A stretch of DNA of 64,000 nt from Letharia columbiana (Eukaryota; Ascomycota; Lecanoromycetes; Lecanorales; Parmeliaceae): positions 620,001-684,000 of the forward strand of contig NW_023501039.1 of NCBI RefSeq assembly GCF_014066305.1, written 5' to 3'. Position 1 is the first letter of the stretch; every line of letters begins with the position of its first letter. Below the pieces are notes generated by a model. That model worked only from the letters and a program-made list of their open reading frames with translations. It had not been told where the DNA came from and made no database searches. This document shows, one piece after another, positions 486 to 64,000 of the stretch. A program made the position numbers and the translations under genes.

Positions 486-2802
486 CTATCTCCCAGAAGC
501 GAATCGCGAATTACCCCCTAAGATGGGGGAATCAGTTTGACTCCTTTGAGGTAGAAAATTCAGGTAACAAAACAAGATTGGAAGCACTGTGAGTATGCTC
601 CCGAGACATGTCTCGGGACTCAACCATGATATTGATTGGAAGGGAATTCCGAAAAGTGTACTCACGTATCCTTCGGCCGAACCTAAAAAACAGATATCTG
701 GTTTGACCAATCAATATATGCCCAAGCCGCCAAGTAGAGAAAATGTGACAGCTGTTGCATCGACGTACGGGAAAGGTGCCATGATAACCGTAAGGCCCGC
801 CAACAAGGTAGTTGCCCACTAACGTGAAGTTCGTCAGTGGAAAAGCTTTGGTCAGAACTGCTCCCTGCATTACCTGATACCCTAATTTGTTGTACACTAT
901 CAAACATTTGTTAGCCTGTCACTGTCACACCTGGCGGATACCGCGTCAGACGTGGAACTCTAGATAATCTTACTTTGATCACCAAACAGTGGAAACGCTG
1001 CAGCGAAGCTCGAGCGAGCAAAGCTGTTTGCCGCCAAGGCAGAGGCGGCATATAGAGGATATGCATCCACCAGAAATGTGAAGATTCCTGAAAATGTAAG
1101 TAGCATGCTGATACTCGTTCAGTAGCTATTCATTGAAGTCAAGGACAATCCGCAGCGACTCACCCGGCTGCAAAGATAGCACTTCCTATGATCGGCACTG
1201 GGTAGAAGTTTAGCTTAGCTCAGGCAACTCCTCTTGTTCCTCCTCACCTATCCAATGTACGGAGGCATACGTGGTCCAGGCAAACCTGCACCGAGGTCAG
1301 CTCGCGATTTGCGATTTGAAATACGGCAATAGATGATGCGCACCAGAATAAGCCAATTGGCACGAGTATCCCTCCTGCAATCGCTGGTGGCAGACGGTAC
1401 TCGGGTTCTGAACCCCCAGACTCTCCATCTTCCTCTTCTTTTTTCCGGAGTAGCCTAAGATAATTGTTGTGCCACAGCGGGTCCGTTCCTATTGCAACCA
1501 ATTGGCCTACCAAAAGGCCCGTGAAACTCAGGCCGACTTGCCACAGCTCAAATCCATGATTGTTCGTGAATACGATTTCGAAAGCGCCAAAGAAGAGATA
1601 GAGGACCCCCAACAATATCGCGGAGAACAGGCAAAGATTCAGGACCATAGGCTCTAGGGTAAGCAACAAAAATGGCCGATAACAGGACCGCAAAATAGTC
1701 TGCAAGATCGAGCGTTGCATAATCTCGATTGGCGCTTTCCATCTCTCATCGCCAGTCTCTTTCCGTAGCTTCGCAGCCTTATGACGAAGAAGGACGGGAT
1801 GATAGGTCTCGGGCACACCTAATACGATCAAGCCAAGCATCAGCGCGGACCAGATGATGAGCACATAGAAAGTCCACCGCCTGATCTGTTAGCCTTTATT
1901 CTATAGTTTGCCTGTTTGACTCACCAGGTAGTGTACTGATTGATGAAGCCTGCGATAATGGGACCCACTGGCGGCCCGATGAACGGAGAGGCCGTGAAGA
2001 TCATCATTGGAGCTTGCAGTTCATTCCGTACAAACATATCGCCAACGGTGCCCCCAGCCACACTCAAAAAAGCACTGCCCGCAATACCGTCAATGAACCG
2101 GGAAACAAGCTCTGTTCCAATGTTCTCTGCCACCGCACAAGGAATAAGCCAAACCAGGAAACATCCAAATGAAAAAACGTAGACGGGACGGCGGCCATAG
2201 AACTCAGATAAAGGCCCAAGAATCATAGGCCCAAGGCCCAACCCCATAACGAACAAGCTCAGTCCCAACGTAGCGACGACTCGGGAAACGTGGAACTCCG
2301 TTGTAATTTGACCGTATGTTAACGTATACATCGACGACGCACATGTGACACACGTTGAGCCGGCGGATACAATGGCCACGATCACCCACTTGCGTGTCTT
2401 GCTCAAGGATCTTGGATTCATAGGATCAGAGTCACCATCGAACCGAACTTCGAACTGCTTATTGGGATCTTGTCCCTTCTCTGCATCCTTGGTAGTCCCT
2501 TCATCATCGTTAAAAGCCGTACAGCCGTAGCCGTTGCCATAGGAGGGCGACCTTTGTAAATTGGCAGAACCTCCTTCGGTGCTTCGATTAGGCGACAAGT
2601 CCGGCGCAGCGGCAGCTCCTTCAATCGGTACGTCTTCTCCCTCTGATCTTGTCCATCGACTCATCGTCTGCGTGGTAGGCTTCTCGACGCTTGGGGCGCT
2701 GTGCGAGGACTGCTCTGAGGTAGCAAGGGTGGAGTCGGAGTGGCCAGAGCCCATCCTAGAACGAGGGTGAGCACAAGTCGTTCTGTATGGGGCTTGAATC
2801 AT
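486..2802 (-). CDS. MFS drug/polyamine exporter, DHA1 (TPO/FLU1-like) type
   Basis: Predicted 12-helix major facilitator of the plasma membrane; DHA1 members export drugs and polyamines by proton antiport. I reconstruct nine exons: 2802-1925, 1880-1344, 1285-1248, 1197-1164, 1107-974, 896-874, 818-769, 697-666 and 517-486, giving 585 aa in one frame. Seen: a long hydrophilic Ser/Thr-rich N-terminus (about 120 aa), then helix 1 after the PMNPRSLSKTRKW segment, the motif A-like loop GPLSEFYGRRPVY, and TTWRWTFYV before the central loop. The C-terminal half keeps LVDAYPLYAASALAANSFARS split over tiny exons. The protein ends FGRRIRGNSRFASGR. The last intron (518-665) is a repeated introner-like element found elsewhere in the window. 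Substrate cannot be read from sequence. Divergent from the gene at 4164. Confidence 0.9.
518..665 (-). mobile_element. Introner-like element, copy C (intron 8 of the MFS gene)
   Basis: On the minus strand the element starts GTGAGTACACTTTTCGG and ends with branch-like CTGATTC followed by ATCTTAG. It contains the perfect 18-bp palindrome CCCGAGACATGTCTCGGG at 600-617. Removing exactly 518-665 (148 bp) joins ...FGRRIR to GNSRFASGR in frame and restores a normal MFS C-terminus. It aligns over most of its length with copies at 37280-37434 and 56332-56490. Confidence 0.85.
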
Positions 2803-6530: not shown

Positions 6531-7145
6531 TCATCGAAAGCGCTCCCACATCTCCATGAACTCCAACCCAATCACTCCATGCCAACCGGTCTTGCTCATC
6601 ACGTCCGTCGCCGCTATGACGGCCCGAACGCACCCATGCTCTCCGGCCCTCCTCCAGCCAGGAGTAAGTGATCCCGAGCCCTTGCAGATTCCGTACCCGG
6701 TGCGCAAGCTCCGCGCAAAGAAGGGGCGGGGGTAGGTACCGGATCGGTGGGGTTGGCGAGCATGGGTGGGTGATGGTTTGGCTGGATGATGATGTGAGGG
6801 AAGCAAGGGAGGGCGCTGGAGAACTGGGTAGTCTGGTACCAGCGACGTTGGAGATCTCGAGGCCGGGAATATGATGCGACCATGACGTCCACTGAGGTAC
6901 CTTACATAGTGGATCTCGGATGATATGGTTTCATCGCTGACAGTTTTCTATCAGGTTCTTCTGTCTTTTGACACCCAGCGGTGTGGAACAGTGGTAGGTA
7001 TGGTGTGCACTGGGCCCGGCGGGCCAGGGGTTCGGGTTCAGATACCGTGTAGACCGATATGACGAGGAATGGAAGAGGATGTAGCGAAAGTCATGCATAT
7101 CTTTAGAGCGAGTCTCAGAGTCTTCACGTTTGGGGAGGAGAAAGC

Positions 7146-18672: not shown

Positions 18673-21615
18673 TCATGCATCGTTTCCACGTGATTGCTGC
18701 TCCCCGAGCTCTTTCGAGAGTCTTGCAACCTCGTCTTGAAGGTTGCTGACCGTGCCCTTGAGAGGGTTTTCTCTCTCAAGACGAAGCTTCAAGAAATCGC
18801 TCCTCCTCTCGGAGTCCTCCCGCTCCTTCTCCAACACTTTTTCGTGCCTCGCCTTCTCATCTGCCCGCTCTTTTCTCTCCTTGTTTAGCTGGCTCTGGAT
18901 GCCACGGTTTCGAACACGAGCGTCGCCTGCGTCTTTGTTCGCTGCCGCCAATTTGTTCTCCAATGTTTTGACCTCGTGATCCGCCTTGGACCCATCCTGG
19001 TCAAGAACCATGGCATCCTTATCGAGCTTGAGCGCGTCTTCCTTGAGTTGGACGGCATCCTCTCGCGCTTTGATCTGCATTTCCCGGAGGGGACTTGCCT
19101 GGTTTTTCGCTTGCTGGAGTTGGTTCTCCAGCTTGAAAACCTGTCCCTCACTTGCCTCGAGCTTCAATGCCTGAGTAGACATTTCACGATCAAGGTTCGC
19201 TTGCCAGATTGGACGCGCGCGGTTCTCACCTTCGACACGATACTTTTCGAAATTGCTTTCAGAAGAGGAATTCATCTGCTCGAGGTTGGCGTTGGTTTGT
19301 TGTAAATTGGCGACTTCGCTTCGCAGCCCGCGGGCATTTTGGTTTACCACGTCCAGCTCCGTTGCTTGGGTGTTATATTTAGTTTGTAGGTCAGTGTAGG
19401 TATTGGCACCTTGACGAAGTTGGTTCGTGAGATCAGTGGTTCGTCCTTCACAGTTTGTATGGTGGGAGCGGAGGTTGTTGTATTCGTCCCACAAACGTTG
19501 TAGCTCTAGCTGCTTCGCGGTGACGCTCTGCTGCATTGTGTTCAGTGACTGCATGTCCTCATTATGCTTGGCTTCCGCAAGCGCCTCTTGACCCAACATC
19601 TTATTGTAGAGATCGTACAGCGCTTGGTAATCCCGATCCTTATTGCTAATAGCGTCATTCTGGGATTGAATATGACGCTCGATGAGATCTTTGCTTGGGG
19701 CATTATTGATCTGACCCTCGAGTTCTGTGATTCTGTCGTCTTTGACCTTGACTGTCGCCCTTAATTCGCGTCCAGCGGCCTCTAATTCGCTGATTCTGGC
19801 TTTCTGACTCTCTGAATGCTCTTTACACTCGCAATGTTCACGGCGTAAGTCGTCCAAATCGGAGTTTGCTGTCGTTAGGCGCTGGAGATTCTCTGCGTAT
19901 CCTGGGGCTGGTTGTTCGGCGATTTCCTGATTCTTTTTCTGAAGGTCATTGATTTCGCGATCCTTTCGCTTGACAGCGTCTTCCAGTCCACGGTGAGCAG
20001 CCTCCAGTTCGCTGATTTTGGTCTTCTGTTCTCCCAGTTCATGTTCACACTCGGCACTCACTTTACGTGCTTCCACCAAACTGATGCGACTATCAGATAT
20101 TTCCTGGCGCAAATCTGAGATTGCTGTGGTTGCATTCTTATCTGCTGTCATCTTCTCTTCTCGAAGATCGTTGATCTCCTTATCCTTCGCGGCTAGCTCT
20201 TCGCCCATGGTCACCTTCTCCTCTCGAAGGTCTTTGATAGCTTGATTGTTCTTGGCTAGCTCTTCGCTCCCTGTCACCTTCTCTTTTCGAAGGCCGTTGA
20301 TCGTTTCATTCTTCGCTCCTACCTCATCGCTCATCACCACCTTCTCGGCTCGAAGGTCTTTGATCTCCGTGTCCTTTGCAGCCAATTGCCCCTTTAGCTC
20401 GGCCGTAGCATCGAATTCTACAGTATCTGCGGTAGCCTTATTCGAGGCTGGTTCCCCCAAATCCTGGCACTCTTTGCGGAGCTGTTTTATGGTCTCCGCA
20501 TCATCAGCGACCTGTTTACCAAGGGTTTTGCATTGCTCCTCATACTCGCATGTATGCACGAGGGTCGTCGTGAGGGTTTGAGACCCGGTAATAGAGTCGG
20601 ATTTTGAAACCTCTGTTAAAGGAAGGGATGTGTGATCGGCGTTGGACGTGGACGCGGCGTCATTCTTGCCCGAATTCCATACGGGGCGCCTCTCTCGAAG
20701 ACGCTTGATCGTTAGATCGCGTGCAGCCACTGTAGCCTCCAGCTCAACAATTCTAGGGTTTTGGTCTTTTAGGCCATATGCGATTTCCGGCTCTGTGCAT
20801 GCACAACGCACTCCCCAAGCGGGCTTGGTATCTAGGGCATTTGGGCGGTACTTTGCCCAGTACGCGGTGCTTCTTGCATTCTTCTTGAGCTGAGATCGTA
20901 GCCACTCTTTCTCCTTGTTGTCCTTTTCGCGCTGAGTCCCGAGCTTCTCCTCGAGAGCCTTGACGCATTTCTCAGACTTCTCCAGGAGATTGTTTGAAAT
21001 CTCGAGCTGTCTCTGGGTTTGCTCGGATCTCTGCTGGTAGTATTCTGGTCGCTTCGCGGACATTCCGTACACAGAGACTTGTTGCAGAAGCTCATCATAG
21101 TCCTGCTTGAAACCTTCCAGGCGCTCGATCTCGTTGTGCTGGACGCTGTTCTCCTCTGCAAGTTCGGTGTTTCTATGCTTCAACCATGGTAGATCCTTGA
21201 AAGCCGTGCTGAGCTCGGCCCGGAGCTCCAGGTTTGTTTCCATTGCTCGCTCATGCTTTGTCCTCATCTCTACCCAGGCACGTTGCGCGTCATCACGCTC
21301 CTTAACGGCGGCATTTCGCTCTTCGTTAGCAGCTCCGACAGGATCCAGGCGATTTTTCAAGCTGGACTGGCCGTAATACCAACTGAGTAGGAGAAGCAAC
21401 CCTATGAAAGAGCTAGAATAGACGCATTGTTTGAGAAAGTACTTTGAACACTAGTCAGCTTGCAAGGTCAAGCTATTCGACACTCTGATACTTACATCCT
21501 GAATATCTGGCTCGCGGAAATCCGGGATAAAGTGAAACTGGGAGCATAGTACACCATACCAAGAGTCTACGCCAGGTTGGAAGCCCGAAGGAAGTCTTGA
21601 GAACTGTTGACCCAT
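18673..21615 (-). CDS. Membrane-anchored long coiled-coil protein (paralog B)
   Basis: Two exons, 21615-21496 and 21441-18673, give 962 aa. It starts MGQQFSRLPSGFQPGVDSWY; the MGxxxS pattern fits N-myristoylation (inference). The segment VDSWYGVLCSQF parallels VDSWWGIVLTEL of paralog A. Exon 2 opens with YFLKQCVYSSSFIGLLLLLS, a membrane helix, and the rest is almost entirely heptad coiled coil. Four repeats of about 21 residues (AKDxEIxDLRxEKVTxxEEL) lie at about 20150-20390. Part aligns with paralog A: APGYAENLQRL versus APSADTVQRLN, then KDDRITELEGQI versus RDREIGSLQGQV. Could be an organelle tether or scaffold; no family assigned. Confidence 0.85.
20150..20390 (-). repeat. About 63-bp coding tandem repeats in paralog B
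   Basis: Four in-frame imperfect repeats of about 21 codons: each reads roughly AKDxEIxDLRxEKVTxxEELA. Paralog A has only a diverged counterpart, so the array appears to have expanded after duplication. Confidence 0.7.
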
Positions 21616-33954: not shown

Positions 33955-36917
33955 ATGGCAAGAACAATCCACACAGCCAGACTCAACCCTCCAACACCGG
34001 TCTCCGATCCAACAACGAGCGCACCAAGCGTGTCTCGGCTCCACACCACCTTTGTAGAAGTCAGGGTCCACACCGCCAAATGCGACTCGTGTGACAGGCA
34101 CAACAAGCTGACCCTGTACCGCTGCACGGAATGCGGCCAGCACGTGTGTTCGTTGTGTTGGCGCAAGGCCGGGGATGGGACCCATGTCTTCGGTGGTGGA
34201 TTGCACGATGTGCCTGGATCGGACGCTAACCATCTCATCGAGGACGATGATGCAGATAGCGAGCGGGGATATAAGAAGGCGGGTAAGACGCATGCTAGAA
34301 GGAGAGTTCAGGTCATCAGCGACGACGAAGATGATGATGTCCCGATGTTGGAGCCTGCTCGCACAATGGAGAACGCAGAGGTGAATGATGCAAGCAAGCA
34401 AGATAGGAAGGAAATAACCGTCATCATGAACGATGACCATCACGAAGACCATGAAGATGACTTGCCCAGATTGTGGCCTGTTGTAGCATCCGGAGAATTG
34501 CCAGTGTTGACGCCGGTTGTACCAGCTGCCAACACAACTGCATCCGAGAGCGTAACCCGGGCGACGCAGAGAGATCCTCACATCTATGGAGAAGAAGGTG
34601 ACTCAGAGCACCAGAGGATCCTGCGAGTTTATGACAGCCTAGGCAGACAAACAATGTCTAGTCGATATGGCTTTGTTGGCGACCAGGAGACAAGCCCTCA
34701 AGCTCGTCATCCTTCCCAGTCATCCATATCTCATCAGCAGGCCACTCAGTTGGCTCCTAGTCAGATCAAACCCGCCATCTACCGCCCCCGGCCTGGGGCA
34801 GATGTGGATAAGCAGGCGGCTCGCAATCAACTTGCTTTCGCCAACAGCCAACCAACGAATCGTCAAGCTCCTCGTCCCGCTCCACCCTTAATGGCACACC
34901 AGCAGGCCACTGAGTTGGCTCCTGATCAGATCAAACCCGCCGTCTACCGCCCCCGGCGGGCGTGTGGTAGCAGGCGGCTCGCAACCAACTTGCTTTCGCC
35001 AACAGCCAACCAACGAATCGTCAAGCTCCTCGGCCAGACAAAGCCCCCACCTCACACGAGCAGGCGGTCCATCCGGCTCCTCGTACGGCGCAAGCCTCCA
35101 TCTCTCCGCAGCATGCTCACACTGCAGCAAACGTGGACCGGGTGGCGGTGCGCAGTCAACAGATCCTCCGCTTGAACCAGCAGGCTCAGGCTTACGCGAA
35201 TGCAAAGCAGATGGAGGCTCGCAATGGACAGGCCTTGAGCTCACACCAAAGCACGCGGCCGGCAGCAGATAGGGACCAAGTAGCGGCTCACAACCAGCAA
35301 GCGTTCATCTCAAACCAGCTGTCGTCATCTGGTGCAACTTATGTGGAACAGATGATAGCGGCTCGCGATCGACAGCAGGCCTATCTCTCACGACAGCAGG
35401 CAAATCATCCAACGCCTGGCCCACCCCAAACCTCGTTCTCATACCGAGGTGCTACTAATACACCTCGTTTTCCAGCTCAGGCCTTCCTCTCACAGCAACA
35501 TGCGGCCCTCTTGACTTCTCGTCAGGCCCAGCATCGGATAGCCACTCAAGATCATCCCAATGGACCTTCGGGGGGTGTCCGGGTTCGAGAGGTATGTCCG
35601 CCAGTCCCCATCAATTCGAATAAGAAACACTAACATCAGTCTCAGCACTCTCCAGAAATCCTCGAAGCAGCCGACACCCTTCTGTTCTACGCCGGAGTAG
35701 ATCAGACTCCGGGAGTTCGTCTCCGTTCGGAACAAGATGAGAATGGTGTCTCACGGTTGGTCAGTGCAGCTGGTCAGCTTGAAAAAGCAAGCTCTGCCCG
35801 TTCTAAGCCCCGCTCGTCTTCGAAGACTTTTGCCGGTGGGTCTGGAGCAGCTGAAACACACTCTAATAGCTCACGTGGTCCTGCATTGAACCCGACTCGG
35901 AGAAGTACGGACGCTGGTTCAGCAAAAGCTCGACTCGACAAGCATCGGGCTCGTCTTGCTGGTTTGCATTCACCAGCGGGTACTCAAAACACTTTTTCTG
36001 ACCGACCAGTCAGCATACGAGGTCATCCAAGCTACCCTTATCCTGCGTTGCAGTCTGATCCAGGACGCATGCTCGCTGACTCCTCCGCTGCCCAGTTTCA
36101 CAAGTCTAGCTTTCGCGGTGCTCAGTCGCACCCAGGCCCCAGGCTCCCTATGTCAGAGCATGCCGCTACGTATCTCAATCAGTGGAACTCTGGTCGTGCT
36201 GCGATGTCCTCAAGCTCGAGTAGTACTGCCGTTGATGTGCCGGCTACCCGACTTAATCACCCCAACTCTCCTGTCCCAGCACTACATCTGCGTTCAACTA
36301 TTAGTGTTCAGGGCATCACAGCTACTGGGCGTAGCTCAAAAGAGGCCGCGGAGGCCAGCACTCAGGCGCTGAGCGCTCCGACGTCCGTGGCCGGAGGACT
36401 GAATGATGTCGATGTTGTGATGGGTAGCCCCGATGTCGAGATTTTCGAGTACGACGAGTCTCGTCGTAGTGAGACACGGGCTCCGGAGAATAACGCTTGG
36501 ACAGTTGGAATGGTTAGGGATGCCGAAAAGGCTCGTGCTAGGGCAGCTGGGCCAACCTCCGAGCTGCACGCCGAAGGCAAAAGCGAAAAGCATCCGAGAG
36601 GCGAGAAAAAAGGTCACCGTGAAACTAACAAGGAGCACAAGGCGTCAAGCGATGTCGATGTTATTGACGCGAGGAAGAGAAACAGCAAGGACAAGCATTC
36701 TGAACAGACCGATGACGATGATAGTGACATCGAAATTACCTATTGGAATAAGTTGGACAGCAACAAGACGGCTGGAAACCACCAAGATACAAATGCTGAG
36801 GCAAAGGGACCCAAGCCCGCCAAAATCATCAAGAAAGGCGTGTCGCACATTCAGAAGCCAGAACCGAAGGGTCAAAAGGAGAAGACGACGGTGGACAGAG
36901 AATTCTTTTGGAGCTGA
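33955..36917 (+). CDS. Cys-rich zinc-binding, largely disordered protein with an apparent frameshift
   Basis: ATG 33955. The N-terminus has a B-box-like zinc pattern: CDSC, ten residues, CTEC, four residues, CSLC, then H and H (residues about 42-82). The rest is disordered, acidic patches alternating with Gln/Ala/Pro-rich repeats. Several segments look like SUMO-interacting motifs (VQVISDDEDDD, DVDVVMGSPD, DSDIEITYW). Two copies of an about 165-bp coding repeat (34728-35040) encode ATQLAPSQIKPAIYRPRP-like units. In the second copy seven bases are missing relative to the first (near 34960-34980), which throws the frame to a stop at 35173. The expected frame reopens (QAARNQLAFANSQPTNRQ...) and continues through a normal intron (about 35592-35645, GTATGT...CTCAG) to the stop at 36915. 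Either a null allele, an assembly error, or an unrecognised intron. Function unknown. Confidence 0.65.
34728..35040 (+). repeat. Two-unit about 165-bp coding repeat
   Basis: Unit 1 starts near 34731 and unit 2 near 34898. Both carry CAGGCCACT.AGTTGGCTCC and AACCAACGAATCGTCAAGCT. Unit 2 is seven bases shorter in its middle, which causes the frameshift. Confidence 0.8.
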
Positions 36918-37273: not shown

Positions 37274-37706
37274 CTACATCTACGCAGATTTCGGAGTCAG
37301 CAAAGTCCATTCGAGGCAGAAAATGGAGTTGCAAGACAGGTCTCAGGAGTAGAAAGGTCCTTTTGCTCCCGAGACATGTCTCGTGACTCGATCCTACTAC
37401 CGACGAGGAAGAATCAGCTCCGCAATGTACGAACCATGAAGGCTTTTTGGATGCCCTTTTTGACCTTTTTCCAAACGCTGTCTCTCACTGCATATCACCG
37501 CCTATCAGCTTCCTAAATACTCTGACATGGACTCAAACAGAATACTTACAAGGCGGCAGACCCTCACTCGCACGTTTAGCGTTTTCCGCCTCCCTCTTCT
37601 CCTGCTCGTCTTTTTCTACCTGGGCCTTGATAGCTTCGTAATTGGCGTTATCCTCCTGGTTCTGAGGCGCGGTGCGGGCGCCAGGACCTATCCAGCCGGA
37701 AGACAT
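37274..37706 (-). CDS. Small conserved-looking protein, with an introner-like element as intron 2
   Basis: Predicted exons 37706-37550, 37487-37435 and 37279-37274. The protein is about 71 aa: MSSGWIGPGARTAPQNQEDN, a charged Glu/Lys helix, then after intron 1 (62 bp) LRDSVWKKVKKGIQKAFM. Intron 2 would be the element at 37280-37434, leaving only one codon plus stop afterwards. An alternative donor four bases inside it gives about 80 aa ending SEIFGF. The reading frame, GTAAGT donor and continuity of a basic amphipathic helix support exons 1 and 2. I do not recognise the family. Divergent from the RING-H2 gene. Confidence 0.6.
37280..37434 (-). mobile_element. Introner-like element, copy B
   Basis: Read on the minus strand, 155 bp from GTTCGTACATTGCGGAGC to CTGACTCCGAAATCTGCGTAG-type end (branch CTGAC plus TAG). 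Internal inverted repeat around GAGACATGTCTCG and a second one around GAGACCTGTCTTG. It aligns end to end with the Wss1 intron copy and has splice sites in the same strand sense as the small gene hosting it. Confidence 0.8.
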
Positions 37707-54385: not shown

Positions 54386-54430
54386 GTAGCAAAAGTCATG
54401 CATAGAGAGAAACTCAATTCACAGCAAGAG
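54386..54430 (+). repeat. Dispersed repeat copy (GCAAAAGTCATGCATAGAG core)
   Basis: Shares about 40 bp with the right end of the MITE-like element at 63548-63846 (reverse orientation): both read GTAGCAAAAGTCATGCATAG, then AGA and a CAATTCAC string. Weaker copies of the core occur at 7081, 55985 and 59511. Confidence 0.65.
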
Positions 54431-55265: not shown

Positions 55266-56198
55266 TATCCAAGTTTGTCACTGTGCGAGCTCCAGCTTAC
55301 TTGACATTAGACTGTTTCTGACTAATTCCAAAGACCCTAGAGCCGACGAGCGGTTCGTTTCTTTATTTAGAACCTACCGAGTCGACACCACTGTATAAGT
55401 TTCCCTCGCCATCCTGACCGTCAGTATTTTGATGCTTCCAACGACAAATGACGTTCGTTCTCCAGGGCCATGACACCATCAAAATTGGCCTCATCATCTG
55501 CTCGACGCTGGTTTCAGCTCCGCTTTCAGTATTCTTCACAAAAGCGTACGCTTTCCCGACATCTGCTCCAAGAATTTATCGAGTTGAGAGCAGACAACAT
55601 TGGATGGAATCGGTAAAAGATATGAGATGTATGCCGCTACGGCTGCCTACGTCTCGTGTGTGAGTTTTGAAGTTACCCTCAGCGTAGCAAGAGTATGGTC
55701 CCAAGAGCCATGTTGAAAATGTCTCGCAACCTACCTCGAGCATCGGCATGCACAAGCCAGTAGGCAGCAACCTTAGGCATTCTCCCAGACAAGGTGACAG
55801 TTGTAAGCAAACGAAACCTTGAATCATCGTCCTTTTCGGCGAAGGGAAACTCAGGTATCCCTTTGTTCTACACCCCTTGGGGTGAACAGTCAACTTATCC
55901 TGGTTGATTCCCACGAGAGTGTGCCGGAATGGAAAGAAAGAAGCCTTCTAGAATTTCCCTTTCAATTTTCGCCCGTCTCATCCCCCTCCATGCACGACTT
56001 TTGCTTGATCCTGCTTCCAAATTGCGGCGGAAATTTCCACTTGAACCCTTCGGTCTTGGCGTCACGTGCTACCGCGTCCATTTGCCACACGTGAGGACAT
56101 CCCCGCTCCTTCGGCACTTCCGCTCAACCAAAACCCACTCTTCACATGTTTCCTTGCACTCACCCATCCTATCTAAAAAGCTCCACCCTCTCGCCACG

Positions 56199-57869
56199 AT
56201 GCCAATCGGTATCCAACGCCTCAACGCCCCCCGTCCCCAACCTTCCTCCCGCATAATCTTCATCAAGCCCCTCCCCGGCCCCACCTCCGCCTACGCCCTC
56301 GACTTCCTGGAACGCATCGCCGCAATCTGTCGTACGTACATTTTCGGAGCTGATCCTTCCTATGTGGTAATTGAAATTGAGTCGCAAGACATGTTCCGGG
56401 AGCAAGAAGACCTCTCTACTCCGGGGACCAGTCTTGCAATTCCATTGCCCACCTCGAAATAACCAATGCTGATTCCCGAAACCTGCGTAGACCCCGTCAT
56501 GACGCACGCCCACCTCTCCGTCATGACGCTCGAAGAACACGAACCCAACCCCGAGTTCATCGGCCGGAACTTCAACGCTGGGGAGATCATCCAGCTGGTG
56601 CTCAAGGCGCCGTACACGGGTCGCTGGTTGAGCTTCAGGAGCGTGCAGATGGTGATGATGCACGAGCTGGCGCATTGCCTGCAGATGAACCACGGGAGGG
56701 ACTTTTGGAAGGTGCGGAATCAGTTCGCGGGGGAATTGAGGGGGTTGTGGGCGAATGGGTACACGGGGGACGGGCTTTGGGGGAGAGGGCAGACCTTGTT
56801 GAGTGGAGAGTATCATACCGGGGGGAGGACGGAAGATGACGTGTTGCCGGCCCACGTGTGTGGTGGGACGTTTAGGAGTTCGAGGGTGGGGAAGAGGAAG
56901 AGGGGTGGAGCTGGCTCCGAGAAGAAGAAAGAGACGTATGCGGAAAGGCAGCAAAGGAGGATTAAGAAGAAGTTTGGGGTCAATGGACAAGCTTTGGGCG
57001 GGGACGAGGAGACGAAGGTGAAGTTGGAAAGGGAGAATAAGGCGAAGGGGAAGCCCAGGGTCGCGGGAAGTCTTCGCGGAAGGGAGTTGAGAGCTGCGGC
57101 GGCGTTGGCGAGATTTGAGGAGAAGAAAGAGGAGGAAAAGGAGGTTAAAGATGAAGAGTGGATGCTGAGTGGCAGTGAGACGGAGAGTGATTGCGATGAC
57201 ATCAAGGTTGAGGGGCAGGCCTTTGAGCTTGATGGCTCGCGGATGCGAGACGACAAGGGTCGTGGCATGGTCAAGGTCTGCGAGGTCGAGGATCAAGATG
57301 ATGTTCACGTGAAGCAAGAGATCGAAGAGCTGCAGGGGTTGGAAGATCTTGGTTTGATTTCACGGACGACGGCAGTAAGAGACCGGACTACCATTGAGCG
57401 GACAGAATCTCGTGGTGCGGATAGAGCGGGAACAAGCTCGAGCCGAGCATCAGCAACGAGCGACATAGACCCTCCAGATCGAATACGCATGGAAGATATA
57501 CCGCAGTACGTCGAAAGAAAGGACCGGCCAAGCGCAAGCAATACAAAAGCCGTCCGAATTAACATCCGTCCCTTGCTTCATGCTGACAAAGACACGCCCA
57601 ATACCACAGCATCGTCAGCGTCCAATCCTCCAGCAACGGCACCAACGGAAACATCGGAACCTTCGGAAATGATGTGTCCAATCTGTTCCATGTCAAACGG
57701 GCTCGGCTCGCTCCTGTGCATAGCATGTAGTCATGTCTTGGACACGGGTAAGATCACAAGATACTGGCGATGCCGAAGCGATGCATGCCAAGGAAGCCAG
57801 TACATCAACGCTGCGGACTGTGGACGTTGTGGAATCTGTGGAAGTCGGAAAGATGATGGCGAGTTTTGA
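56199..57869 (+). CDS. WSS1: WLM-domain metalloprotease, Wss1-like (DNA-protein crosslink repair)
   Basis: Two exons, 56199-56331 and 56491-57869, give 503 aa. Wss1/SPRTN-family proteases cleave proteins crosslinked to DNA, acting with SUMO and Cdc48. The WLM catalytic motif is intact: HELAHCLQMNH (HExxH plus third His). The WLM start (MPIGIQRLNAPRPQPSSRII ...FLERIAAIC) is joined to HPVMTHAHLSVMTLEEHEP only by splicing out the introner-like element. Downstream is a basic region, acidic segments with KVCEVEDQDDV-type SIM-like strings, and two zinc-finger-like Cys sets: CPICSMSNGLGSLLCIACSH and CRSDACQG...CGRCGICG. The intron is the repeated element described next. Confidence 0.92.
56332..56490 (+). 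mobile_element. Introner-like element, copy A (intron 1 of WSS1)
   Basis: 159 bp from GTACGTACATTTTCGGAGCT to a CTGATTC branch region and CCTGCGTAG. The core is CAAGACATGTTCCGGGAGC. Exact excision keeps the reading frame through the WLM domain; the alternative donor four bases inside does not. It aligns along its whole length with copy B at 37280-37434. Confidence 0.88.
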
Positions 57870-59116: not shown

Positions 59117-60196
59117 CGTGATTGATTTACGGAAACGATTGTGGTGGGAACGACAGCAAGTGGGTTTTCGATTTGGGCTTTAACCGACTGGAGGATCTGG
59201 TATGGGAGAGAATGAACGATATGCAGGCGATCTGCTAAAGAAAAGTTGTAGTTGTAGCTGTACTAGCCCCAAAAAGATAGGCTTATGACTACTACGGGGG
59301 GCAGGTTTTCTCTTTGCCGAAAGCTCTGGCTGAGCTAAGTTCATATGATAATAACGGGATATTTGGGCTTGATGCTTATGAGTCGTGTTAAAGTTGAAAG
59401 ATCAGGCGCTCAACATTGCTACTTTCTTTGCACAGCTTGGCCGGAATCGAGGGGAAGAGGTGAGGTTACTAGCGGCTTGGCGTCTATCATGTGTGCCCTG
59501 GTAAGAGGTTCGAGCAAAAGTCATGCAAAGAATATCAATCAAACCAGATTGACTATTTATCTTCAATAGTCCGTAATCCAAGAGAACTTGATATAAAAAA
59601 TGTAACATCCCTCCCCTTCACTTAGGTAGATAATACTTAAAGTTCGGTCTGACAGCGCACCTCTTGAGACTTAGACATTTTAGGAATGCCTCTAAGCATG
59701 ACATTTGCTACGTTCATTTCTTACCCGTAGGCGAATCGACACCAAACACTGGGTCAATCAGAAGAAACAGAACTTGTGAAAAAGGGGGCGACCGCGCACC
59801 AGTAACGGATTCGAGACTCATATACAGGACTCATGCATTTCCGCATCGTGGACCGTGCCAGATACCTGACCTGCGAGAGGAGCAGCGGTCCGATCTGGCC
59901 GGATAGGTGTGGGAGAAGAAACAGCGGATGATGTGGTAGGGAGACGCGAATGCTTTGTAAATATGCAACGCCTCCGAAGAAGAAAATGAAAGTGCAAGGC
60001 CAGATGATATCGGAACCATTCACAGGCCCGCTTGCTGCCCCTTTGAGAGTACAGAATGAAGACGTGATCGCTGCGAAGACATCTCGTGGGCTGCTAACCG
60101 TGGCGACATGGAACGTTCAATCCCGAAGAGTAGCTTTTCCTGTAGTCTCTAGCAAGCCGGAGTGAGTCGCGAAAAGGTAGATGACGGTTGACGGCC
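59117..60196. other. Intergenic, about 1.1 kb
   Basis: No gene recognised. A weak copy of the dispersed core (GAGCAAAAGTCATGCAAAG) is at 59511-59531. Confidence 0.5.
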
Positions 60197-60360
60197 CTTA
60201 TTTCGGAGTAAGCATTCCCATTCGTTAAAAAATCTCTGAGTAGAGGGACATATTTGGGGAGTAGAGAGGGTGCTAGATTGGATAAGTTGTTCCCCCAACA
60301 TGTCTCGCGGCTCAAGAACCAGTTTCGAACAAGAAGAGACCACTCCGAAAAGTGCCTTAC
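60197..60360 (-). mobile_element. Introner-like element, copy D1
   Basis: Minus strand: starts GTAAGGCACTTTTCGGAG, contains GCGAGACATGTTGGGGGAAC, ends near GCTTACTCCGAAATAAG. It lies one base downstream of copy D2 in the 3' region of MTM1. Decayed relative to copies A and B: the palindrome and branch point are altered. Confidence 0.65.
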
Positions 60361-60361
60361 C

Positions 60362-60573
60362 CTACGCAGATTTCGGAGTCAGCATCGTTTTTCTTAGTTG
60401 ACAAAACGAGGAAAGAGACACGTTTGAGGTAGAAAGAATCTTCCGGTGCGGTAACATGGCGTTTCGCCTGATTAAGAAGACAACTCTGGAGAATAATATA
60501 GCTTTCTGCTCTCGAAACATGGAGTGTGACCCCAACTTGCTACCGAGTAGAAAAGATTTACTCCGAGAGCTAC
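60362..60573 (-). mobile_element. Introner-like element, copy D2
   Basis: Minus strand: starts GTAGCTCTCGGAG four bases after the MTM1 stop codon, contains CATGTTTCGAGAGC, ends CTGACTCCGAAATCTG then CGTAG, identical to copy B over its last about 22 bases. At 212 bp it is longer than the others, with extra sequence in the middle. It is followed one base later by copy D1. Confidence 0.7.
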
Positions 60574-60577
60574 CTAT

Positions 60578-62012
60578 TCAACCTCCAGCAGCATCCCTCT
60601 TTTTCTCGTTTATCCTCTTCGCCATCTTTTTCCCAACCTCGTAACTACTGATCATGATAGCACACGCCGGCGCCACTTTCAGCATCCTCGGCACCCAGCC
60701 TCTGAACAGGCCCGCCATCCCCTCCTCTTTCCAGATATGGTAGATGAAACGCGGCATCGCCTGCTCTTCTGGTCTTAGCGCTGTTGAAGCTTCTCTTCCA
60801 ATTTCCTTTGCGGGCTCATGGTGGAGCACTTGCTGTCGAGTTTTCCCGACATCGAAAGGTGTTGTGATAACAGAGGCTATAGCTCCCGAGAGGGCTCCGG
60901 CGATGAAGCTGTCCACGAATGTCGAGGTGTGATTACCACTGTCTCTTGTTTTCGATCTCGGTCTCGTCCGCGAGTGCGGAGGATCTCGCATGTCTGCCAA
61001 TCTATTCCGTACAGCTTCGTAACCCCACCAGTATATTCCACTAAACGGCACATCCCGCCACATCGTCAACGTTAATCCTCGCCAAAGTGATGTGTATCCC
61101 TGGGAATGCACCATGGTCCGCAGTCCCGTGAGCGTTTCGGCGAACACACCTGTTCCGCTGCCAGATGTAGTGGCCTGCATTCGCGTTCGGAACATCTCGA
61201 TAGGGCTTATGACACTTGCGGCTGCAACTCGTGCTATCGATCCAGCGATAAGAGGGGCGTAAGCATCTGGGATGTAATTGTGTACCGGGCTGTGAGGATT
61301 TGAACGGAGAGAATCGTAGCCGGTGAAGTAAATGACATTTGCGGGTATGGACATGACGAGGGTAGGGGAAAGACCTCTCCAGAGAGAAGTAGGCCCTTCA
61401 TGGCGGGCAATCTTGCGGAGCCCATCGAGAGTGGAGGTGAAGTTCTTGCGGCGAGTCTCGTCGACCGCGCAGTCGGCGGCTGGAGATGCTGTTGAGGATA
61501 AGGATGGATTGAGAGTTGCGAGGGTGGCGGTTGGAGAGGGGTTGGCGGCTATGCAGAAAGGCGAGGTATTGTTCACCCAGAAGACTTCGCGGCAGCAGGC
61601 TGTGACGCCAATATTTGGAGGCAGATTTGTGAAATTCGAGGAGGGTTTAGAGATAGGAAGGTTCGAGGTCTGGGATTGAGATTGCAAGCGTACTCGGACG
61701 ACATCTAGAGGTGTGACTATTGAAGAGATACGTTAGTAGAGAAGACATACTTCGGTGTTGAAGGACGGAGGTACCAAGGAGAGATGTCAGGAGACTGCCG
61801 GATACCGCAGAGAGCATCTTCTGTCCGGCAGATATATCCATCACCACCTCGGGCTCGCCGGAGTCATTCATTGTCACCGAGTTGCTTCTTGATGCCGCGC
61901 CTTTTGATGATATGTTGTGCCTCTGCCCCGGAGGTTGTTCCGAATTTCCATGACTTGGGGTGGCAATCTGGTGTTCGTCTGTGCGTGCTGGCTCTGATAT
62001 GAAGCCTGACAT
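60578..62012 (-). CDS. MTM1: Mitochondrial carrier Mtm1/SLC25A39-40 type
   Basis: Two exons, 62012-61751 and 61716-60578, give 466 aa. Members import glutathione into mitochondria and affect manganese and iron-sulfur homeostasis. Three carrier repeats with PX[DE]xx[KR]-type signatures: ITPLDVVRVRLQ (spanning the intron), ISPIEMFRTRMQ and TTPFDVGKTRQQ. Diagnostic of this subtype is the long first matrix loop with cysteines NIGVTACCREVFWVNNTSPF C and later CAVDETRRKNFTSTLDGLRK, corresponding to the cysteine-rich loop of SLC25A39 that senses iron-sulfur status. The intron is only 34 bp with a perfect TACTAAC branch point. Two introner-like elements follow the stop directly. Divergent from the MARVEL-like gene. 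Confidence 0.93.
61717..61750 (-). other. Very short intron (34 bp) of MTM1
   Basis: GTATGT donor, TACTAAC branch point and ATAG acceptor within 34 bases. Its removal is required to join exon 1 to ITPLDVVRVRLQ in frame. Confidence 0.75.
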
Positions 62013-63444: not shown

Positions 63445-64000
63445 GATATTGTGAATGGATTCGAAGAGCCCTTGTTGTTCCATCTGTATCTTTCACTTCT
63501 CCACGCCGCAGTAATTAGGAAATATGAGGGTGGAATATAAGAGGATCGAGAAAAATTCACGCATAGAGGGCGAAACCCAGTCCTACAGTTGCTAGAAAAT
63601 ATCGACAGTCTTCACGAATTCTTCCTAGCAAGGGAGTAAATCGTAGAAGTCGTACAACCCAGGCGTATGGCCAGAGAAAGGGAATTATTTCCACAAACTC
63701 TCCCTAAAAACTGTTGTGAATTGAAGATCCTTGACTGAAAAAAGTCGATGTATTTCAATCGATATCTACAAAAACCTGTGTAAATGGAAAGAAAGAGAAA
63801 TTTCTCCTGTGGTGAATTGAAGTTCTCTATGCATGACTTTTGCTACATTCTTTTACAATGATTGGGCCATTCAGATTGCATCTGAGCTTCAATTAGTGGG
63901 AATCTGATGGAGCATCTATACTGATAGCATGAGCAAAGCCGATGCTACTTAAGTCTGACGTACCCAAGCTCGTTTGTCCTTCATATCTTCTGCTGATCGC
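63445..64000. other. Intergenic to window end
   Basis: Holds the MITE-like element below; no gene recognised. Confidence 0.5.
63548..63846. mobile_element. MITE-like non-coding element with terminal inverted repeats
   Basis: Left end GAGAAAAATTCACGCATAGAG and right end (reverse complement) TAGCAAAAGTCATGCATAGAG match at most positions over about 25 bases. About 300 bp, AT-rich, no ORF, with an internal repeat GTGAATTGAAG near each of 63715 and 63812. The right end is shared with the sequence at 54386-54430. Target-site duplication not resolved. Confidence 0.5.

Follow-up and report, generated by a model that had tools for sequence, protein, structure and literature searches.

A probable introner-like element family with inverted-repeat ends, including the single intron of a WSS1-like gene, in the lichen-forming fungus Letharia columbiana

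Described introner systems

Introner-like elements (ILEs) are reportedly known from the Dothideomycetes through the work of van der Burgt in 2012. According to the passages of Collemare 2015 (PMC4457414) that deal with them, ILEs are multi-copy canonical introns in unrelated genes, with several families per genome; they are gained at sites that are empty in relatives, degenerate with age and are sometimes found twice in one gene. The family that we describe here from Letharia columbiana is alike in each of these respects. It differs in its host, which belongs to another fungal class, the Lecanoromycetes, and the two are likened by description and not by sequence. The palindrome and the C^A preference of the lichen family go unmentioned in those passages of PMC4457414. 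Its copies are also far less alike than those of the active ILE families of Zymoseptoria and Fulvia, for which the same passages give 98-99% identity, and are closer to those of Dothistroma, for which they give less. The comparison with Dothideomycetes drawn in the initial annotation holds as background but not as a statement of host class, the host being a lichen-forming Lecanoromycete by its protein relatives.

In the results of Gozashti 2022 (PMC9860276), ascomycete introners are an outlier without terminal inverted repeats (TIRs) or target-site duplications (TSDs). The introners of that survey and the lichen family share similarity from splice site to splice site, enrichment in genes and a mostly unchanged mRNA length; in contrast to the ascomycete families described there, the lichen family has TIRs. 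These inverted repeats extend over the full length of the lichen element.

Stwintrons and related introns with TIRs, without TSDs and without site bias are described in Fekete 2021 (PMC8469720). As far as the relevant parts of PMC8469720 and PMC12403724 describe them, the sister stwintrons and cropped sister introns of Hypoxylaceae and Xylariaceae resemble the lichen family in being seamless and free of target duplication, in the length of their near-terminal inverted repeats (10 nt, against ~9-17 nt in the lichen family) and in the position of these repeats, just past the donor and beside the branch point and acceptor. However, the stwintrons are mostly nested ([D1,2]) and show no site bias, whereas the lichen element is one canonical intron that favours C^A; the repeats also differ in sequence, being GUAUAAAAAC in Xylaria and AUUUCGGAG in the lichen family. 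The algal introners of the MITE type (Huff et al., as presented in portions of PMC9860276 and PMC12403724) are likewise short, non-autonomous intron makers with inverted repeats; their target duplications supply one splice site, whereas none was found in the lichen family. In the titles and abstracts of the open-access literature, we found no report of introners for lichen fungi, Lecanoromycetes or Parmeliaceae, and supplementary tables may list a lichen genome.

The intron of the WSS1-like gene and its dispersed relatives

The window, by which we mean the whole 64-kb stretch of DNA analysed, carries a gene for a WSS1/WLM protease with a GT-AG intron that, as first proposed from the sequence of the window, proved to be a repeated element: it is one complete copy of an element of ~155 bp that is scattered through the genome. 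The features of the gene, its intron and the other family members in the window are as follows.

56199..56331, + strand: exon 1 of the WSS1-like gene (WLM domain), from sequence, relatives and domain search
56332..56490, + strand: intron of the WSS1-like gene, an introner-like element of 159 nt, GT...AG
56332..56349, + strand: 5' arm of the element, donor GTACGT and ATTTTCGGAG, forming the 5' terminal inverted repeat and one strand of the near-terminal stem, from counts per position in 60 copies and the fold
56379..56402, + strand: 5' arm of the central hairpin (GAGTCGCAAGACATGTTCCGGGAG), from the folds of this copy (z -2.3) and of the consensus (z -9.2)
56418..56442, + strand: 3' arm of the central hairpin, from the fold of the WSS1 copy
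56469..56490, + strand: 3' arm of the element, branch-point-like CTGAT, TTCCCGAAA (pairing with the 5' arm) and acceptor GCGTAG, from position counts and the fold
56491..57869, + strand: exon 2 of the WSS1-like gene, stop codon at 57867-57869, from sequence and domain search
37280..37434, - strand: second full-length copy of the same family (GTTCGT...CGTAG), 144.6 bits
60362..60573, - strand: long-form member of 212 nt with duplicated centre, two profile pieces of 42.9 and 37.9 bits
60197..60360, - strand: older member, head to tail behind 60362-60573, 71.6 bits over 60355-60195
518..665, - strand: older, diverged member (GTGAGT...CTTAG), 53.2 bits over 520-661

The WSS1 intron lies in phase 1 and splits a His codon (TGT C|AC), giving the flanks C|A; its branch point was assigned by motif only. 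In the spliced protein, Pfam placed the WLM domain at residues 21-202 (480 residues were submitted and the last 22 omitted), the exon junction falls at residue 44, inside the domain, and the alignment with relatives runs across it. The earlier claim that excision keeps the frame and the WLM domain was thus confirmed, with exon 2 ending in a stop codon, and the GT block, the central GACATGT hairpin, the branch-point-like CTGAY and the ...TAG end were all as first described. A [D1,2] stwintron (nested, G|GT...AG|T...AG) was rejected for WSS1, where the intron reads as a single GT..AG unit. No Rfam family matched over 56232-56590 at E <= 1. A viral carrier of the 3' end motif was also sought, but viral_contigs contained no match to the exact 21-mer.

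The family occupies well over a hundred places in the genome. When the 52-Mb genome was searched with the 159-bp intron, scores were computed for 40 of the 60 first-look candidates; every one of these was a match, and 30 spanned query positions 1-158 or 1-159. Genome-wide, the 5' end motif gave 84+83 matches (reversed control, 5+6), the 3' end motif 74+80 (0+1) and the 13-mer CTGACTCCGAAAT, with at most one mismatch, 213+213 (control, 24+21). Copies were collected from a sample of the genome, 74 separate stretches with 293,505 bases (~294 kb). Its 110 starts were the 100 listed of 167 places of the 5' motif together with the matches of the first search; 35 starts were not fetched, 2 of which lay inside another sampled locus. 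A first profile, made from 20 full-length copies and run on 90 partly overlapping loci and the window, returned 236 raw matches in 122 regions, which became 117 elements once pieces were joined. Two regions were too close to a locus end, and of the 120 usable ones 105 had GT..AG, with a shift of up to 6-8 nt allowed for ends beyond the reach of the profile; in the other 15, 6 of which scored above 60 bits, GT or AG was missing from its expected position. A broader superfamily profile, built partly from the window and most of the loci on which it was then run, returned 313 raw matches, 144 regions and 139 elements from the 90 loci and the window, and at E <= 0.1 it had no match on reversed sequences against the 313 raw matches on the real ones. 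After one of the identical copies C77 and C109 had been removed, 60 unique copies above 60 bits remained. The element and its printed flanks are identical between these two (loci L013 and L012), which lie on two contigs; this seems to reflect a redundant or haplotype contig in the assembly.

Some loci hold several copies. At L028 (C49:145947-149102), four members of different subfamilies lie on one strand within ~1.2 kb, and one gene may have gained several introners at different times. At L077 (C1:1713800-1714147), a 5'-truncated copy is followed by one base and then by a full copy; the internal GTGAGT of the element may act as a donor for the truncated copy.

All five window copies named in the initial annotation were real and related by the superfamily profile (37.9-144.6 bits), the WSS1 copy at 56332-56490 (+) scoring 128.7 bits. 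Four of the five lie outside demonstrated coding exons. No coding exon was found around the copy at 37280, which has 22 and 8 open codons in sense, and the copy at 518-665 could not be placed in any gene. The members at 60197-60360 and 60362-60573, which had been listed as two related copies, are indeed related and are better described as a head-to-tail pair with one base (G) between them. This pair (60197-60573, -) begins 4 nt past the stop codon of a mitochondrial-carrier ORF (60581-61732, -; Mito_carr) and therefore, on this reading, lies in the 3'UTR and not in a coding exon; introns so near the carrier stop codon may be harmless.

The window also holds other repeats. A second dispersed repeat, TGCATGACTTTTGCT, has five window matches with at most one mismatch, where 0.01 were expected. 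A motif search placed it as follows.

7083-7097, - strand: TGCATGACTTTTGCT repeat
54388-54402, - strand: TGCATGACTTTTGCT repeat
55991-56005, + strand: TGCATGACTTTTGCT repeat
59513-59527, - strand: TGCATGACTTTTGCT repeat
63830-63844, + strand: TGCATGACTTTTGCT repeat

Genome-wide, it had 54+46 matches (control, 0+3), and about 15 inverted pairs, 137-375 bp apart, occur among the matches listed, an arrangement that resembles a small inverted-repeat transposon. The start codon of WSS1 is preceded by one of the copies at a distance of ~200 bp. Imperfect direct repeats were seen at 20145-20364 (63-bp spacing) and 34698-35035 (~160-bp spacing).

Open frames around the copies and insertion sites in relatives

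In the sense direction, exact excision left one joined frame that was open for 30 codons or more to either side in 46 of the 60 copies; the antisense strand gave 19 of 60, and random places in the window gave 36%. With at least 60 open codons on both sides, the values were 26 of 60, 3 of 60 and 7%, respectively; 14 of the 60 copies do not reach 30 open codons on each side. When the excision was made longer by 1 or 2 bases, open arms were found in 35/61 and 36/61, against 47/61 for the exact excision. We chose 20 of 38 joined frames, for length and a recognisable look, for Pfam searches, and in 16 of these 20 a domain extended across the junction, one of them (Amidase, 26.6 bits) lying just under its cut-off of 27. 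In two of the remaining four a domain edge touches the junction, one has a sub-cut-off domain elsewhere and one has none. The copies sit in genes of unrelated Pfam families. A codon-usage score trained on 18 ORFs, which was a weak test, was higher in sense than in antisense for 37/60 copies (122/270 random excisions), exceeded 0 in 42/60 sense and 26/60 antisense readings, and agreed on the frame for 37/60 copies (82/270 random excisions). Neighbouring elements up to 1.5 kb apart lay on the same strand in 67/67 pairs above 25 bits and in 93/94 pairs of all scores. Judged from sequence, most copies thus have the same orientation as the open frames around them, with the frame restored by their removal, and, in the sampled copies at least, they are not mostly outside genes, which is what the introner proposal in the initial annotation had required (46 of 60 join open sense frames).

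To compare the insertion sites with those of relatives, we used WSS1, FMO and photolyase proteins, keeping 84, 88 and 63 of the 120 listed for each. Proteins from ena, lgn and jgi were kept and those from NCBI, nr and UniRef, which possibly are spliced models, were dropped. Unspliced sources make the comparison informative, since in their proteins an intron shows up either as a break or as read-through; this unspliced state is evident from read-through in P0001 and P0011 (ena) and P0196 (lgn and ena) and was taken to hold for the rest. Among the matches listed, with proteins as the only evidence, the site was uninterrupted in 58 of 59 spanning relatives for WSS1, the exception being P0001, in 88 of 88 for FMO and in 63 of 63 for photolyase. 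The other 25 of the 84 WSS1 proteins fall short of the intron site and may have either state. Intron carriers tend to drop from such lists, and the figures therefore tell that the intron-free state is widespread rather than how many carriers there are. In all three genes, the insertion added or removed no residue.

P0001 is the closest WSS1 relative among the matches listed (94%), and its N-terminus corresponds to the translated 3' half of the WSS1 intron, with 32 of 37 residues agreeing in our own comparison; a peptide from another copy of the family hit the same place by BLAST. The WSS1 relatives P0003-P0006 (71-79%) read through the insertion site, and P0011 has an intron-like stretch, seen by eye, elsewhere in the protein. 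The closest named proteins among the matches listed were those of Alectoria sarmentosa (81%) and Imshaugia aleurites (69%), both Parmeliaceae, for WSS1, of Stereocaulon virgatum (Lecanorales, 79%) for photolyase and of Lecanora helva (77%) for FMO. On these protein comparisons, the WSS1 intron is a gained intron seen, among the matches listed, in Letharia columbiana and its closest relative only; it is not conserved in relatives, as the introner proposal had predicted. In addition, the FMO of one relative, P0196, runs at AMDG|F into a peptide like that of the 147-nt subfamily (E 7e-7, 56% over 27 residues), at a site where the Letharia columbiana genome has no intron. If so, the superfamily would have made introns in more than one species.

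We found many similar introns in unrelated genes, similarity extending to both splice sites, insertion at sites empty in relatives and sense orientation in genes. These results make it very probable that the elements form an introner-like family, that is, a canonical U2-type intron that multiplies, and the original introner interpretation is supported by the gained WSS1 intron and by the sampled copies, which lie mostly in open sense frames. From the frames, the domains and the relatives, we infer that the elements of the family are spliced from mRNA. The converse explanation, that older transposons landed in pre-existing introns and made none, is an established alternative, removed by filtering in introner surveys (PMC9860276), and it is hardly credible here, where similarity starts and stops at or very near GT and AG and the whole intron is missing in 58/59, 88/88 and 63/63 spanning relatives among the matches listed; an old transposon inside a pre-existing intron is contradicted in WSS1, FMO and photolyase alike.

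Hairpin, insertion site and route of spread

In the 60 unique copies above 60 bits, positions 1-17 are GTACGTACATTTCGGAG, conserved at 86-100% per position, and the last 18 are ACTCCGAAATCTGCGTAG, at 66-88% ahead of the final AG. GT and AG stand at 100% in this set because copies without them had been left out; without that selection, the projected ends of copies above 60 bits gave a GT start in 67/67, most of which were found through a query or motif beginning with GT, and an AG end in 53/67. The two ends are inverted repeats, GTACGTACATTTCGGAG matching the reverse complement of the end, CTACGCAGATTTCGGAG, with 14 of 17 bases equal between the consensus ends by our count. The 155-nt consensus folds into a single end-to-end hairpin in which base 2 pairs with base 154, at -65.1 kcal/mol compared with -31.5 +- 3.7 kcal/mol for shuffles (z -9.2). 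The WSS1 copy folds less stably (-44.9, z -2.3), and z was below -2 in 49 of 59 young copies and 9 of 27 older ones. Four more subfamily consensuses, of 2 to 7 copies each, also fold, with the outermost pair near both ends in three; that of the two-copy subfamily ends at base 127 of 147. Long forms of ~215 nt, including that at 60362-60573 in the window, carry the centre twice.

In resident young copies, paired and unpaired columns have changed at nearly equal rates (13.1% and 14.7%), and the hairpin therefore seems to be little or not at all needed for splicing. Pair-keeping double changes in the young copies slightly exceed those in shuffles (37 versus 29.6 +- 4.4, and 42 versus 31.9 +- 4.8 in another alignment of the set), and some constraint on the structure of resident copies is therefore possible. 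Compensated pairs over subfamilies numbered 168 against 106.1 +- 8.7 in shuffles for all 86 copies and 126 against 105.7 +- 6.9 for the 27 older ones, counts that shared descent inflates across subfamilies. RNAalifold returned no structure on the 220-column superfamily alignment. Selection on the structure after insertion is at most weakly supported by the young set. On the simplest reading, the fold matters for copying, and the near-perfect hairpin of the consensus is that of the sources that multiplied.

The flanks of the copies have no strong base beyond -1 and +1. Of the 60 copies, 24 have C|A flanks, and so do 13 of the 20 that match the profile best, compared with a CA background of 7.5% in neighbouring exons (p ~2e-12, with copies treated as independent). 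All 24 C|A copies end in CGTAG; 19 of them have open arms of at least 30 codons, 15 of these in phase 1. The C and A of the site lie in codons for His (WSS1) and Gln (FMO), residues that do not vary among the six relatives shown for each gene, and the C and A bases therefore derive from the target. No copy of the 60 had 4-10 equal bases at its exact ends, and a 3-base repeat was present there in 2 of 60 (0.8 expected). The strongest shifted repeat signal (26 versus 15.7) falls inside the element. A CGTA target duplication was rejected, because in this shifted signal the partner of flank base -1 belongs to the element itself, because a C at -1 accompanies the CGTAG end and because the relatives of WSS1 and FMO retain the residues encoded at the site, where nothing has been added or lost. 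Three places have two copies in head-to-tail order, either abutting or separated by one base, and no split donor was seen.

Copies are a median of 87.7% identical to the consensus (~12% away) and 76.8% (~77%) to one another. Apart from the identical C77 and C109, the closest pairs are one at 97% and the next at ~93%, copies at ~99% being otherwise absent; the family thus does not show the near-identical copies that mark active families rather than the class. If a single gain is accepted and the Alectoria gene is intron-free (its protein comes from a named source and may reflect a spliced model), the WSS1 insertion predates the split from the species of P0001 and postdates that from Alectoria. 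The family had been called active or recently active. "Active" goes further than the sequences do, because the copies are 88% identical to the consensus at the median and the WSS1 insertion is common to the closest relative; present activity is possible, and "recently active" holds only on the scale of speciation.

How would such an intron spread? We lean, with modest confidence, towards copying through an RNA hairpin. The excised intron RNA would fold end to end, and the hairpin would hold both ends together. The hairpin RNA, or a copy of it, would then be inserted at exonic C^A sites and become permanent as DNA. Since the spliceosome would remove the new copy from the mRNA, the host gene would survive. 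Spreading would depend on the hairpin, whereas splicing would need it hardly or not at all, given its decay in resident copies. An RNA intermediate, which has also been proposed for the Xylariales stwintrons (PMC12403724), is favoured by the sense direction and exon bias of the copies, by their seamless insertion and by a stem that joins the ends.

Another possibility is a non-autonomous DNA transposon (MITE) whose TIR ends became splice sites, with a transposase moving the DNA and selection keeping the sense copies in genes. The inverted repeats of the consensus ends (14/17) and the palindromic nature of the whole element would suit it, the C^A target preference resembles the choice of an enzyme, and most introner families outside ascomycetes bear signs of DNA transposons in the relevant passages of PMC9860276. 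However, target duplication is absent (0/60), the three genes compared show seamless insertion as judged from their proteins, and intergenic copies should persist freely under this explanation, yet 46 of 60 copies join open sense frames. We consider it rather unlikely. It is possible that a DNA element with inverted-repeat ends inserts here without duplicating its target. The arguments for the RNA route are the sense bias, the seamless insertion and the hairpin, and a similar pattern could result from selection acting on a DNA element.

It is doubtful that intron RNA was simply captured at random chromosome breaks during repair, without a sequence-specific step, as in the model for Xylariales stwintrons. 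Seamless insertion, lack of target duplication and a near-terminal stem, as described for stwintrons in parts of PMC12403724, agree with such capture, as do the head-to-tail copies with 0-1 base between them. Random breaks predict neither the C^A flanks of 24 of 60 copies (all 24 ending in CGTAG) nor the exonic bias; the C^A preference points to an insertion step with a choice of sequence, for which random break repair gives no explanation.

Returning to the RNA hairpin, we tentatively propose a wider reading, which we hold to be possible though not probable: that the elements form a superfamily several subfamilies deep, whose mobile form is an end-to-end RNA hairpin inserting seamlessly at exonic C^A, and that the near-terminal stem is a requirement of intron copying that evolved independently in ascomycetes and is shared with the stwintrons of Xylariales. 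If this were true, a large share of the introns of lichen fungi would be decayed copies. With a target preference, a gain placed between relatives and a graded decay at hand, the order of hairpin, copying, splicing and decay can be tested with genomes of close lichens. The origin of new spliceosomal introns is a long-standing question, and this family shows one way in which genes gain introns.
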